Position numbers and translations under genes: made by a program. From a virus: a stretch of 28,435 nucleotides of DNA. The first letter of the stretch is position 1. The number at the start of each line of letters is the position of its first letter. Positions 7,046 to 16,443 of the stretch are shown here, piece by piece. The DNA is taken from IMG/VR virus record IMGVR_UViG_3300042471_000360, positions 1 to 28,435 of that record; one strand, 5' to 3'. The notes beneath the pieces were generated by a model. That model had not been told where the DNA came from and did no database searches. It was given only the letters and a program-made list of their open reading frames with translations.

Positions 7046-7054
7046 TGGTATACT
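7046..7054 (+). promoter_or_regulatory. Extended -10 promoter (TGGTATACT), leaderless configuration
   Basis: TG-G-TATACT begins 2 nt after the stop of the jelly-roll gene. The hexamer ends 7 nt before ATG 7062, so transcription should start at or next to the A of the start codon. No Shine-Dalgarno lies between, which fits leaderless translation. Confidence 0.65.
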
Positions 7055-7061
7055 TTAGTAT

Positions 7062-7460
7062 ATGAATCCTTTGATTAGTCAAAAAACTGGTAAACCAATT
7101 GTTCAAAATGTACGTAGAAAGGTCATAGATAAGTCATATGACTGGGGACTATATGTTTATAAAAAATCTAATGGAAAATGGTTTACAGATAATGATGGCA
7201 ATGTATTGAATATTCCCTCTATGAAGGGTGATATTTCTCAAATAACAAAGCTTAAGCAGGCTGCCATGCATTATGGTGATCCAGGTGATGGCAAGGCAGT
7301 ATTTGTTCCTGGACTTACAAGAATTAGCGATGATGAATATACTGAGCAGGTTGATAGAATGAAAAATGGTTTAATCCCATCAATGAACGATCTTGGCGCA
7401 TGGAAGGCAGCACAGGATACATTAAATACTCACGGAAGAGATGCTTACGAAAATGAATAA
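7062..7460 (+). CDS. Conserved-looking small protein upstream of portal, function unknown
   Basis: The 132-residue protein is predicted to start leaderlessly at ATG 7062. It is mixed and soluble-looking: a basic N-terminus (residues 1-25), an aromatic segment WGLYVYKKSNGKWFTD near 28-43, a central KGDISQITKLKQAAMHYGDPG at about 54-74, and an acidic C-terminus containing SMNDLGAWKAAQDTLNTHG. No cysteine cluster, signal peptide, membrane segment or nuclease motif is visible. Its end overlaps the portal gene by 8 or 20 nt depending on the portal start, so the two are probably translationally coupled. In many phages this position holds the large terminase, but this protein is far too short and lacks Walker motifs. 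I recall similar unnamed proteins beside portals in actinobacterial phages, without an assigned function. A minor head role is a guess. Confidence 0.7.
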   Translation: MNPLISQKTGKPIVQNVRRKVIDKSYDWGLYVYKKSNGKWFTDNDGNVLNIPSMKGDISQITKLKQAAMHYGDPGDGKAVFVPGLTRISDDEYTEQVDRMKNGLIPSMNDLGAWKAAQDTLNTHGRDAYENE

Positions 7461-9127: not shown

Positions 9128-9136
9128 TGATATAAT
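9128..9136 (+). promoter_or_regulatory. Extended -10 promoter (TGATATAAT) for protease/scaffold/capsid operon
   Basis: A perfect TGnTATAAT lies in the 40-nt gap after the portal gene and ends 9 nt before ATG 9146. A -35-like TTGAGA at 9106-9111 is 19 nt upstream, slightly too far. The short distance to the start codon implies a leaderless or nearly leaderless message. Confidence 0.7.
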
Positions 9137-9145
9137 TAACCTGCC

Positions 9146-10450
9146 ATGATTATAAATAAAGCACAATGGACTACAGATGGCGACAATGTTCGCTTCTCTA
9201 TGCCTATTGGCAAAGTAGACCAAGAGCGTCGTATCGTTTCTGGCTTTGCTACATTGGACAATGTAGACAAGCAGGGCGATATTGTCACAACTGAAGCAAG
9301 TATAGACGCAGTTAAGAAATTCCGTGGCAACCTTCGTGAAATGCATCAGCCTAGTGCTGTAGGAAAGGTTGTTTCATTTAAAGAAGATCGTTATTTTGAT
9401 CCTAGAGAAAAAAAGTTTTATAGTGGAGTATATGTTTCCGCATATGTTTCAAAAGGAGCCCAAGATACTTGGGAGAAAGTTCTTGACGGTACTTTAACTG
9501 GATTTTCAATTGGTGGAAATATTACAAAGTCTGATGACATGTATGATGAAAAAATTGATAAATCAGTGCGTATAATTAAAGAATATGATCTGCATGAATT
9601 GTCTCTAGTAGATAATCCAGCAAACCAGTTTGCCAATGTAATTTCTATTGAAAAAGGACAGCTTGGTGGTTTTCTTGCAAAAGCTGTTGTAGATACAGTT
9701 TACTGGTGCGGTTCAGATGACATAGTTAGACTATCAAAAGAGTCTGACGAAAATTGTCCATCTTGCAATGACACAATGAAAAATATTGGATTTGTTGAAG
9801 ATCAAAATGATACAGAAACACTAAAGTTCTTAGTTGATAGTGCAAAAGGCATTAAGACAATTAAGATAACAAAGGAGGAAAATCCTATGACAGAAGAAAC
9901 AAAAGAGACAGCTCCAGCATTGCTTGCTGAGGGTGAGTCAGTTGTTCCAAATGTTGAGGTTGCTCCAGAGGCTCCAGCAGAAGAAGCACCAGCAGAAGTT
10001 TCTGCAGATGTTCCAGCAGCAGAGCCAGTGGCAGAGGAAGCAGTAGCTGCAGTGGATGCTCCTGCTATTGATGATATAGCAGAAAAAGCAGTTGATGCAG
10101 TTGTTGATACAGCTGCTGAAATTGCAAAGTCTGTTTCAGAAATTAATACCTCTGTAACTAATGCCTTGAGCAATCTTGCAGAAACAGTAAAAGCTATGCA
10201 AGCAAATGTTGATGCAATAACAAAGTCCCTTGAAACAGTTACAGGCGAAGTAAAGTCTGTAGCAAGTGAGGTAAGCCAAGTAAAGGGAACTTTTAATGAG
10301 TTTGGAAAGCGAGTAGATCTTGTTGAAAAAGATACGGCTTTCCGCAAGTCTGGCGATCTAGGCGAGATCGTACAGGAGCCTGTTGTAAAACAGGTTCAAA
10401 AATCCCTATGGGGCGGTCGTTTCCTCACAAATGCCGACCTATTTAACTAA
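9146..10450 (+). CDS. Prohead protease (S78-type) fused in frame to capsid scaffold domain
   Basis: Residues ~20-170 form an HK97/XkdF-like prohead serine protease: RRIVSGFATLDNVDKQGDIV, catalytic His67 in REMHQPSAVGKV, nucleophile Ser121 in LTGFSIGG, and an LHELSLVDNPAN segment with Glu151 as possible third member. A small cysteine region follows (C188, then CPSC at 204-207), perhaps a degenerate zinc ribbon. After about residue 248 comes an Ala/Pro/Glu-rich stretch, then a long helical coiled-coil region (about 275-400), and a C-terminal tail KSLWGGRFLTNADLFN that may bind capsid protein. Full length is 434 residues. The enzyme matures the prohead by cleaving scaffold and capsid arms; the fusion would deliver it into the shell. 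An internal start at 9887 probably yields free scaffold. A promoter lies directly upstream and the capsid gene follows 27 nt later. Protease assignment is strong; scaffold assignment is from composition and position. Confidence 0.88.
   Translation: MIINKAQWTTDGDNVRFSMPIGKVDQERRIVSGFATLDNVDKQGDIVTTEASIDAVKKFRGNLREMHQPSAVGKVVSFKEDRYFDPREKKFYSGVYVSAYVSKGAQDTWEKVLDGTLTGFSIGGNITKSDDMYDEKIDKSVRIIKEYDLHELSLVDNPANQFANVISIEKGQLGGFLAKAVVDTVYWCGSDDIVRLSKESDENCPSCNDTMKNIGFVEDQNDTETLKFLVDSAKGIKTIKITKEENPMTEETKETAPALLAEGESVVPNVEVAPEAPAEEAPAEVSADVPAAEPVAEEAVAAVDAPAIDDIAEKAVDAVVDTAAEIAKSVSEINTSVTNALSNLAETVKAMQANVDAITKSLETVTGEVKSVASEVSQVKGTFNEFGKRVDLVEKDTAFRKSGDLGEIVQEPVVKQVQKSLWGGRFLTNADLFN
9871..9878 (+). 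promoter_or_regulatory. Strong internal Shine-Dalgarno (AAAGGAGG) for nested scaffold start
   Basis: AAAGGAGG is nearly complementary to the 16S rRNA 3' end and stands 8 nt before an in-frame ATG at 9887. It encodes only TKEE in the protease frame. It is stronger than the ribosome sites of most neighbouring genes, including the protease itself, which has none. Confidence 0.7.
9887..10450 (+). CDS. Nested scaffolding protein translated from within the protease ORF
   Basis: ATG 9887 is codon 248 of the protease ORF and is in frame with it. It begins MTEETKETAPALLAEGE and would give a 187-residue acidic, Ala/Glu-rich then coiled-coil protein ending in the same LWGGRFLTNADLFN tail. The upstream AAAGGAGG at 9871-9878 with 8-nt spacing is what supports separate translation. 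Scaffolding proteins are typically small, acidic and helical, are needed in far greater amounts than protease, and leave the prohead during maturation. The layout matches the known lambda arrangement in which Nu3 scaffold is made from an internal start in the C protease gene. That this start is used is an inference from the ribosome site; only protein data would prove it. Confidence 0.68.
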   Translation: MTEETKETAPALLAEGESVVPNVEVAPEAPAEEAPAEVSADVPAAEPVAEEAVAAVDAPAIDDIAEKAVDAVVDTAAEIAKSVSEINTSVTNALSNLAETVKAMQANVDAITKSLETVTGEVKSVASEVSQVKGTFNEFGKRVDLVEKDTAFRKSGDLGEIVQEPVVKQVQKSLWGGRFLTNADLFN

Positions 10451-10477: not shown

Positions 10478-11623
10478 ATGTCGGAACAAGAAATCGTAAA
10501 GAATTATCCAGGTGCTCCAACCATATCCCATCAACATGGTGGTGATGGTGCTTTTGCATCAGGTGATATTGGAGGTGCAACGGCTACAAGCCCAAGCACA
10601 TCTGATATTGGTGCTAACCTAGGTAATATCGCTACACCTGAATGGGGTGCTACGACTGGAGCAAACGCAGTAAATCCTACTGGTACTCCAGGTGGTATTC
10701 TCCTTCCAGAGCAGGCTCGCCGCTTCATTGACTATGTGTGGGATGCAACAGTTCTCGCCAAAGATGGTCGTAGAGTTACAATGCGAGCAAACACCATGGA
10801 ACTTGAAAAAGTTAACGTTGGTGAGCGTGTTATTCGTGCTGCTGCACAAGCAAGCAACGATTATACAAACGCTGGTGCTACATTCACAAAGGTAGAGCTA
10901 ACAACCAAAAAGATTCGTCTTGATTGGGAAGTATCTACTGAAGCGCTTGAAGACAATATTGAAGGAGGTGCGTTGGAAGATCATCTAGTTCGCTTGATGA
11001 CCAATGCATTTGCTAATGATATTGAAGATCTAGCAATTAACGGTACTGGAAATGGTGGAGATGGAGCATTCCTCTCTATTATGGAAGGTTTCGTTCCAAA
11101 AGTTGTAGATGGTTCAGATGCTCATGAAGCAGTTGTTACTGTTTCTGACGATGCCTGGACTACAGAGGTAATGCAGGATATTATTCTTGCAATGCCACGT
11201 AAGTATCGTGCACTTAAGACTAATCTTAAGTTCTATGCTGGTACTGACGCATTCCAGGGTATCGTAAAGAACAACGGTACACTTGCTGACGCTATTGCTG
11301 AAGCTTTTGCTCCACGCACTGGTGGTACAGAGCGCAACCGTCAAGCATATCTTGATGGTGCTGCACAAACATTCGGTGGAGCACGTACAACCCGTGTTCT
11401 CGGAATTGACGTTCAAGAAGTTCCTTATTACCCAGGCGGATATGTTGACCTAACATTCCCTGCCAACCGTGTATGGGGCTTCCAGCGTGATATCACGGTA
11501 AATCGTGAATACAAGCCAAAGAAGGATACAATTGAATACACAGTATTCGTCCGCTTTGGTTTGCAATGGGAAGAGCTTGATGCAGTCGCTTATGCGGATG
11601 CAGCAGTTGACCCAACCGCATAG
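10478..11623 (+). CDS. Major capsid protein (HK97 fold)
   Basis: This protein builds the icosahedral shell. The start is ATG 10478: AGGAGGT at 10464-10470 lies 7 nt upstream, whereas a GTG at 10469 overlaps that ribosome site and cannot use it. The 381-residue product has an N-terminal arm (residues 1-70) rich in Gly, Ala and Ser with YPGAPTISHQHGGDGA, then GGILLPEQARRFIDYVWDATVL, an E-loop-like region with strands (ELEKVNVGERVI), the spine-helix region LEDHLVRLMTNAFANDIEDLAINGTG, a P-domain segment around DDAWTTEVMQDIILAMPRKYR, and an A-domain ending with RFGLQWEELDAVAYADA. Arginine codons are mostly CGT/CGC, unlike the AGA-rich flanking genes, consistent with high expression. It is followed by a stable hairpin and then by a short gene copying its N-terminal arm. 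Confidence 0.92.
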   Translation: MSEQEIVKNYPGAPTISHQHGGDGAFASGDIGGATATSPSTSDIGANLGNIATPEWGATTGANAVNPTGTPGGILLPEQARRFIDYVWDATVLAKDGRRVTMRANTMELEKVNVGERVIRAAAQASNDYTNAGATFTKVELTTKKIRLDWEVSTEALEDNIEGGALEDHLVRLMTNAFANDIEDLAINGTGNGGDGAFLSIMEGFVPKVVDGSDAHEAVVTVSDDAWTTEVMQDIILAMPRKYRALKTNLKFYAGTDAFQGIVKNNGTLADAIAEAFAPRTGGTERNRQAYLDGAAQTFGGARTTRVLGIDVQEVPYYPGGYVDLTFPANRVWGFQRDITVNREYKPKKDTIEYTVFVRFGLQWEELDAVAYADAAVDPTA

Positions 11624-11688: not shown

Positions 11689-11901
11689 ATGTCATATCCA
11701 GGAAATCCAACTATAAATCATCAACACAGTGGTGATGGAGCAATAGCTGCTGGTGGCATAGGAACAGTTATTAGTGGACCCAATGGAATTATTACAGAAA
11801 GATTTGCAATGGGGTGTATCCCTACAGCAAACTTTGGAGAAAATATAATAATGAGTGGAACTCCTGCTGGTATAAGAAAACCACAAACATTTAGAAGATA
11901 G
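11689..11901 (+). CDS. 70-residue protein resembling the N-terminal arm of the major capsid protein
   Basis: ATG 11689 is preceded by AGGAGA at 11679-11684. Residues 3-25 match capsid residues 10-32 through the shared pattern YPGxPTIxHQHxGDGAxAxGxIG, and the last 14 residues (GTPAGIRKPQTFRR) match capsid residues 69-83 (GTPGGILLPEQARRF). The part between differs. The gene therefore looks like a shortened paralog of the capsid N-terminal arm, ending where the shell fold begins. It contains no domain able to form a shell. It sits between the capsid hairpin and the next promoter, so it probably depends on capsid read-through. Possible roles are a cement or decoration peptide, a competitor for scaffold or protease, or a component that reuses an arm-docking site. 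Function is unknown; the similarity is directly visible. Confidence 0.75.
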   Translation: MSYPGNPTINHQHSGDGAIAAGGIGTVISGPNGIITERFAMGCIPTANFGENIIMSGTPAGIRKPQTFRR

Positions 11902-15707: not shown

Positions 15708-15716
15708 TGATAGAAT
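15708..15716 (+). promoter_or_regulatory. Extended -10 promoter (TGATAGAAT), leaderless, for the long tail chaperone
   Basis: TG-A-TAGAAT differs from the window's consensus at the third hexamer base. The hexamer ends 7 nt before ATG 15724, so the message should start at or next to the start codon; no ribosome site is available. It lies immediately after the terminator T-run. Confidence 0.6.
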
Positions 15717-15723
15717 ATATAAA

Positions 15724-16443
15724 ATGGCTACAGAAATTTATAAAAAAGATAAAATATTTTTAATAGATGGCATAGAGATAGAAATTGTGCCATTAAAAAT
15801 AAAATATTTAAGAGAATTTATGCACAGTTTTGAAAAAATTTCAAAAGCAAAAGACGATGATGAAGCAATTCAAATTTTACTAGAATGTTCATTTATATGT
15901 ATGAAACAGTATTATCCATCTTTATCAAAAAATATAGATGAGTTTGAAAATAGTATAGATTTGCCAACAATATATAAAGTAATAGATATTGCTGCTGGAA
16001 TTAAAATTGATAAAAAGTCAGAAGATACGGTAAAAGATCAGGCGACAACTAGTGGATTAAGTTGGAATGAATTAGACTTAGTTAAGTTAGAGTCTGAAGC
16101 TTTTTTGTTAGGTATATGGAAAGACTATGAAGATTTAGAGATATCATTATCTATGCCAGAATTAACTGCTACTTTATCAAGTAAAAGACATATAGATTAT
16201 GAAGAAAAAAAATTTTTAGCAGCAATACAGGGAGTTAATTTAGATAATGAATCTAGCGATGGAAAACGTAGGGGTCAACAAGAATGGGAAGATTTAAAGG
16301 CTAGGGTTTTTAGTAAGGGTAAAACAGCAGATGGAAATGATGTTTTAGCTTTACAAGGACCAACTGCTAAAAAAGCTGGATTTGGTATTGGAATGGGTCT
16401 AGATTATGATGATATGAGAGACCCATCTTTAATGAAATCTTAA
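15724..16443 (+). CDS. Tail assembly chaperone, long form (G-T equivalent)
   Basis: The 239-residue protein is colinear over its first ~95 residues with the short protein encoded at 16500: LIDGxEI near 13, PLKI near 23, a MKQYxPxL segment near 60, and DLPTxYK near 79. After residue ~105 it adds a T-like domain: WNELDLVKLESEAFLLGIWKD, quoted in part, then LSMPELTATLSSKRHIDYEEKKFLAAIQGV and a Gly-rich, charged tail. In lambda and most siphophages the long form arises by programmed frameshifting; here it is one continuous ORF. Such proteins coat the tape measure and recruit tube subunits but are absent from the finished tail. Expression signals look weak: an imperfect -10, no ribosome site (leaderless), AT-rich codons with many ATA and AGA. 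The terminator upstream insulates it from the tube message. Role is by family and position. Confidence 0.82.
   Translation: MATEIYKKDKIFLIDGIEIEIVPLKIKYLREFMHSFEKISKAKDDDEAIQILLECSFICMKQYYPSLSKNIDEFENSIDLPTIYKVIDIAAGIKIDKKSEDTVKDQATTSGLSWNELDLVKLESEAFLLGIWKDYEDLEISLSMPELTATLSSKRHIDYEEKKFLAAIQGVNLDNESSDGKRRGQQEWEDLKARVFSKGKTADGNDVLALQGPTAKKAGFGIGMGLDYDDMRDPSLMKS

Follow-up and report, generated by a model that had tools for sequence, protein, structure and literature searches.

The protease locus of the viral DNA studied here most probably encodes two proteins in one frame, a protease-scaffold fusion, whose start is probably leaderless or nearly so, and a free scaffold read from an internal Shine-Dalgarno sequence (SD). 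The window, by which we mean the whole stretch of DNA that was analyzed, is an environmental virus record of 28,435 bases. Its closest annotated homologues belong to phages of Streptomyces and Rhodococcus, and a relative that is 83% identical in the protease domain (L182) lies in an Actinomycetota MAG; the host of the phage is therefore probably an actinobacterium. Table 1 lists the features of the locus.

Table 1. Features of the protease-scaffold locus and the adjoining capsid gene, in window positions.
Feature	Position	Strand	Details and basis
Extended −10 promoter element (putative) TGATATAAT	9128..9136	+	TATAAT at 9131-9136; predicted transcription start ~9143 (−3) or 9146
Protease-scaffold fusion ORF, 434 aa	9146..10450	+	Pfam S78, S78_2; PHROG 9427; conserved N-terminus
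Protease domain, residues 4-160, invariant H67 and S121	9155..9625	+	AlphaFold2 pLDDT ~70-85; alignments
Zinc-ribbon-like segment, residues 183-217 (C188, C204, C207)	9692..9796	+	Alignments; cysteines not in all relatives
Codons 227-251, one of the stretches of the ORF with least synonymous variation	9824..9898	+	46 sequences; 35 closer relatives
Predicted RNA hairpin; its end lies 4 nt upstream of the SD	9828..9866	+	−13.3 kcal/mol, z −5.1
Internal SD AAAGGAGG	9871..9878	+	Duplex energy; homologue comparison
Predicted nested scaffold gene; free product of 187 aa (19.5 kDa, pI 4.21)	9887..10450	+	
Scaffold long helix or coiled coil (residues 315-402)	10088..10351	+	AlphaFold2 secondary structure
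Scaffold C-terminal motif KSLWGGRFL	10400..10426	+	Near-invariant in alignment A2
Major capsid protein (381 aa) without an HK97-type delta domain; SD AGGAGGT	10478..11623	+	Pfam Phage_capsid; SD −14.5

The ORF product exceeds the curated Pfam cut-offs for Peptidase S78 (PF04586, 30.7 bits vs 21) and S78_2 (PF14550, 27.6 vs 24), and it matches the head maturation protease family PHROG 9427 over its full length (residues 2-431, 2.5e-118). Its N-terminus is conserved in the alignment of homologues. AlphaFold2 models the whole product (mean pLDDT 60.7) as a barrel spanning residues 4-160, followed by a small beta segment (183-217), a disordered stretch (235-314) and one long helix (315-402). Among solved structures, the protease domain is best matched by T4 gp21 (Z 12.2, rmsd 3.1, 132 residues aligned), and more weakly by the herpesvirus protease (Z 5.5, rmsd 3.5, 108 residues aligned). 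The two invariant residues, H67 and S121, are the predicted catalytic His and Ser, and the fold is that of a prohead protease. Pfam matches of the ORF are to S78 and S78_2 only, with no S49 (ClpP-like) domain of the kind found in the lambda gpC family; we assign the ORF to S78 and not to that family. The sequence-only reading had placed a cysteine region at the junction of the protease with the scaffold-like part, and while these cysteines are present in the window, they have been lost in many relatives.

The internal SD precedes ATG 9887-9889 by 8 nt. This ATG lies in the reading frame opened by ATG 9146, as codon 248 of the ORF, and both SD and ATG are exactly where the sequence-only reading had put them. 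By duplex energy with the 16S tail, the internal start (−11.8 kcal/mol) ranks second among the gene starts of the window, behind that of the capsid gene (−14.5). Taken alone, this is not significant, and chance is within reach: synonymous codon shuffles of the ORF yielded some equally strong internal in-frame start in 57 of 400 cases, and one at codon 248 specifically in 47 of 400, because K-E-E codons readily spell an SD. RNA folding also finds a weak AGGA...UCCU pairing that could cover the SD, which counts against use of the internal start. Since a single sequence is weak evidence, the site had to be compared with its counterparts in relatives.

In the annotated Streptomyces and Rhodococcus phage homologues, representatives of which are 36-54% identical to the window in the protease region, the strongest internal SD lies at the protease/scaffold junction in 22 out of 22. 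Its energy ranges from −9.0 to −16.0 kcal/mol and is in each case clearly better than that of the next best internal site in the same ORF. The start is ATG or GTG and opens unrelated residues (MADERK, VAEENK, VTKKND, MADTTL, MDKSTE), and the SD is kept despite other residues at the site itself (EKGGA, NEGGVI, MEGGQ, EVSK). About 150 environmental relatives agree with the junction site, and in close relatives (63 distinct CDS) neither the SD core nor the start varies. Diverse relatives were scanned with the protease domain only (alignment A1), so that the internal site was not selected for. In this set, the junction site is the strongest internal SD of all intact family members, environmental or from MAGs, with energies of −11.1 to −13.6 kcal/mol. 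This includes the relatives whose longer linker places the site at codon 329 (L170) or codon 298 (L183). The exceptions are L114, in which a stop at codon 146 interrupts the ORF, and L184, which is a distant Herbaspirillum protease (38% identical, protease domain only) with no junction site. As a control, 453 in-frame internal starts were taken from neighboring and other genes of five of the annotated phages; two of them reach −10 kcal/mol or better, both before TTG.

Synonymous variation was also low around the site. Over the 25 codons from 227 to 251, observed/expected synonymous change was 0.29-0.32 in 46 diverse sequences, where the median is 1.10, and near zero in 35 closer relatives. On these comparisons, we regard the internal site as being under selection. 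The nucleotide-level conservation that had been proposed as a check of the nested gene is thus borne out, in that relatives keep both the SD and the start, and these turn up again at this junction in phages with unrelated sequence around it. The comparisons give good support to a gene nested in frame behind a strong ribosome site of its own, and we have little doubt of it. No relative with a split gene, i.e., with a stop between protease and scaffold, was found among those compared; the lone interrupted cases (L004 with a stop at codon 254, and L058/L114, which are one contig) are perhaps sequence errors. Synonymous variation is also low in two more stretches near the end of the scaffold (codons 402-408 and 417-432), and the predicted fold with the highest stability in the ORF starts near 10346-10352.

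Within the conserved codons, the RNA is predicted to form a hairpin whose stability was reached by 2 of 1000 synonymous shuffles. It folds in all 31 distinct family sequences, in four of which two adjacent pairs are open and form a small internal loop, and at four pairs we see one-sided changes that preserve pairing. Two-sided covariation is absent from the pairs among family sequences, and shuffles reach the same score; covariation was dropped as proof, and the case for the hairpin is built on its folding energy and on the constraint at synonymous sites. The hairpin is likely to be real but is not proven. Samistivirus, Coruscant, Trina and Weasels2 do not share it, Loccivirinae and L183 have different hairpins ahead of the SD, other relatives are without any, and an Rfam search gave no match. 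The hairpin may serve to keep the site open, or in RNA processing or regulation.

The predicted nested product consists of a disordered linker and one long helix, and across 154 relatives it measures 159-205 aa with a pI of 4.05-4.54. The motif near its C-terminus, which is possibly a coat-binding element, has a counterpart in Streptomyces phages (SKWGGRFL or SKWGGHFL). Database searches gave no match between the scaffold part and known scaffold families, and a PDB sequence search returned unspecific coiled coils only.

The capsid protein bears on the function of this product. In HK97, the capsid protein carries a scaffolding domain of 103 residues at its N-terminus (PMC10275583). The capsid proteins of the Streptomyces and Rhodococcus homologues have only ~20 residues ahead of the HK97 fold, and in the window's family the N-terminus appears from its sequence to be ~70 Gly/Ser/Asn-rich residues. 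Sequence comparison finds no helical N-terminal domain of ~100 residues in either, and we rejected scaffolding by a delta domain of the capsid protein itself. Because such a domain is missing, a separate scaffold is expected. No separate scaffold gene adjoins the capsid gene in the Stanwilliamsviridae and Rhodococcus phage records or in the environmental relatives examined. The C-terminal part of the protease ORF lies directly before the capsid gene and is therefore the natural candidate. It is very likely that the free product functions as a scaffold, and the earlier assignment of this role gains support from the acidic, helical product and from the capsid protein without a delta domain.

The start of the protease itself is of a different kind. 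The duplex energy at ATG 9146 is +0.6 kcal/mol, i.e., there is no SD, in agreement with the earlier claim that this start lacks a ribosome site. A TATAAT box occupies −15 to −10 inside the intergenic gap and ends 9 nt before the ATG. In 39 of 39 non-redundant relatives, TATAAT starts at −16 to −14 (0.56 expected), and the 35 sequences with the box at −15 all have a purine at −3 (G in 26, A in 9). With the usual 6-7 nt between a −10 box and the transcription start, transcription is predicted to begin at −3 or later, which would leave no room for an SD. The missing SD probably reflects a leaderless mRNA, or one with a leader of ~3 nt, rather than a defect, and we consider a leaderless start of the fusion fairly likely. 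Streptomyces phages carry TANNNT from −12 to −7, frequently with TTGCAT or TTGGCT 17 nt ahead of it. The protease start of Weasels2 is preceded by TTGACA-17-TATACT. In the window's family, the −35 region is not consensus, which counts against a promoter at this place. In several Streptomyces phages, e.g., Coruscant, Daubenski and Braelyn, the protease ATG overlaps the stop of the preceding gene, so that coupled translation may contribute.

The exact element TGnTATAAT occurs five times in the window (3412, 9128, 11908, 14949 and 16465), always on the plus strand before genes, and is absent from the minus strand; these five look like the promoters of the phage's structural genes. Two genes with little or no SD, starting at 7062 and 15724, are preceded by TGnTANNNT ending ~7 nt before the ATG (7046-7064 and 15708-15726) and may also be leaderless.

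We propose that the promoter with its −10 box would give an mRNA starting at ATG 9146 or ~3 nt before it. On this leaderless or near-leaderless message, the full-length protease-scaffold fusion would be initiated without an SD, while on the same mRNA the internal SD would direct synthesis of the acidic helical scaffold in the same frame. The free scaffold, made in many copies, would co-assemble with the capsid protein encoded by the next gene. A few fusion molecules would be carried into the prohead by their scaffold tail, which is identical to the free form, and the protease would then digest the scaffold. It is tempting to speculate that the locus works as a stoichiometry switch, in which a fusion with no leader or a 3-nt leader is paired with an SD-driven scaffold, the hairpin keeps the site open or regulates it, and the arrangement is conserved in phages that infect freshwater Actinomycetota, Streptomyces and Rhodococcus; we hold this broader proposal tentatively, at somewhat less than even confidence.

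Free scaffold could also arise if only the full-length protein were made and the protease cut itself at the linker. Prohead proteases process themselves, phage P2 gpO releases its free scaffold by self-cleavage, and the disordered linker (residues 235-314) would be easily cut. Self-cleavage gives no account of an SD and start that recur at the junction in unrelated sequence, nor of the constrained synonymous sites, and it would supply protease and scaffold in a wasteful 1:1 ratio; it seems improbable to us. Even less credence attaches to the SD-like sequence being a by-product of K-E-E residues and codon use. The shuffles that match it speak for such an origin, but the SD is kept over other residues in homologues and control sites of comparable strength are very rare, which makes the probability close to negligible.

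A separate short mRNA, made from an internal promoter or by RNA cutting at the hairpin, might instead supply most of the free scaffold. We think this unlikely, given that the −10-like hexamer of the promoter-like TTGATA-16-GACAAT at 9834-9861, which speaks for it together with the hairpin end so close to the SD, is lost in L168, L169, L171 and L178, where the overall shape of the hairpin is kept. For the same reason, we rejected this promoter as the cause of the synonymous conservation, which the hairpin explains better. The protein product would in any event be identical. It is also conceivable that the internal start is used and the short protein is a decoration, internal or regulatory protein rather than an assembly scaffold, in keeping with the lack of a sequence match between the C-terminal part and any scaffold family. 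The position between protease and capsid gene, the acidic coiled-coil make-up, the conserved C-terminal motif and the capsid protein without a delta domain all argue against this, and we judge it very improbable. Our preferred reading remains that of a fusion and a free scaffold translated from one message.

The locus has a conserved in-frame internal ribosome site and start at a domain junction, and in this it resembles known nested protease/scaffold loci. In phage lambda, the C-terminal part of the protease ORF, gene C, is also made alone as the scaffold Nu3, with translation starting internally in the same frame. The ORF studied here would likewise encode a scaffold by its C-terminal part alone. 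Lambda C is the protease and Nu3 the scaffold (PMC3224144), and C belongs to the S49 (ClpP-like) proteases (PMC10695390). The protease here is S78 with a T4 gp21-like fold, unlike the S49 protease of lambda, and we see no sequence relation between the two. The comparison with lambda made in the sequence-only reading is thus sound, but as an analogy only. Herpesvirus UL26 and UL26.5 offer another parallel, in which a nested scaffold shares the C-terminus of the maturation protease and the protease fold is related to the one here; the short form there has its own transcript, whereas here an internal SD probably acts on one mRNA. T4 gp21 shares the protease fold most closely, but the scaffold core of T4 comes from a separate gene, gp22. 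HK97 gp4 is an S78 family prohead protease and, as in the window, lies upstream of an HK97-fold capsid protein. The scaffold is fused to the capsid protein in HK97 (PMC10275583) and to the protease here. PHROG 9427 and the capsid maturation protease of Stanwilliamsviridae are of the same family as the ORF product over its whole length, and the gene order there, portal-(small gene)-protease-capsid, is that of the window, but the window is without the small gene.

The nested gene is annotated in none of the records of Stanwilliamsviridae and Rhodococcus phages that we examined, our literature search found no description of a nested start in this protease family, and the paper on Coruscant makes no mention of scaffold or protease. 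While the principle of nesting is known from lambda and the herpesviruses, the pairing of a putatively leaderless start with an SD looks like a new form of it. The nested gene would locate the missing scaffold gene of the examined Stanwilliamsviridae, Rhodococcus phages and environmental relatives, would correct many genome annotations, and would add an S78 protease of gp21-like fold to the known cases of the nested protease/scaffold layout. Should the promoter upstream of the protease be real, the locus would be a clear natural case of leaderless and SD initiation jointly setting the proportions of two proteins with a common C-terminus, which could be tested in cultured Streptomyces phages such as Coruscant.

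Some minor observations were made on the relatives and on other genes of the window. L170 (3001-4590), one of the two relatives with a longer linker, has an extra cysteine cluster (CKECGMSC...CQKC) inside the nested scaffold. L183, the other, is 51% identical in the protease and lies on a 110-kb contig of a MAG binned as an uncultured cyanobacterium, which may be due to a binning error or to a wider host range. A class II (B12-dependent) ribonucleotide reductase is encoded by the phage at 1380-3410. The N-terminus of the capsid protein (YPGAPTISHQHGGDGAFASGDIGG, 10478-10560) resembles that of the next small ORF of 70 aa (YPGNPTINHQHSGDGAIAAGGIGT, 11689-11770), perhaps through a partial duplication.
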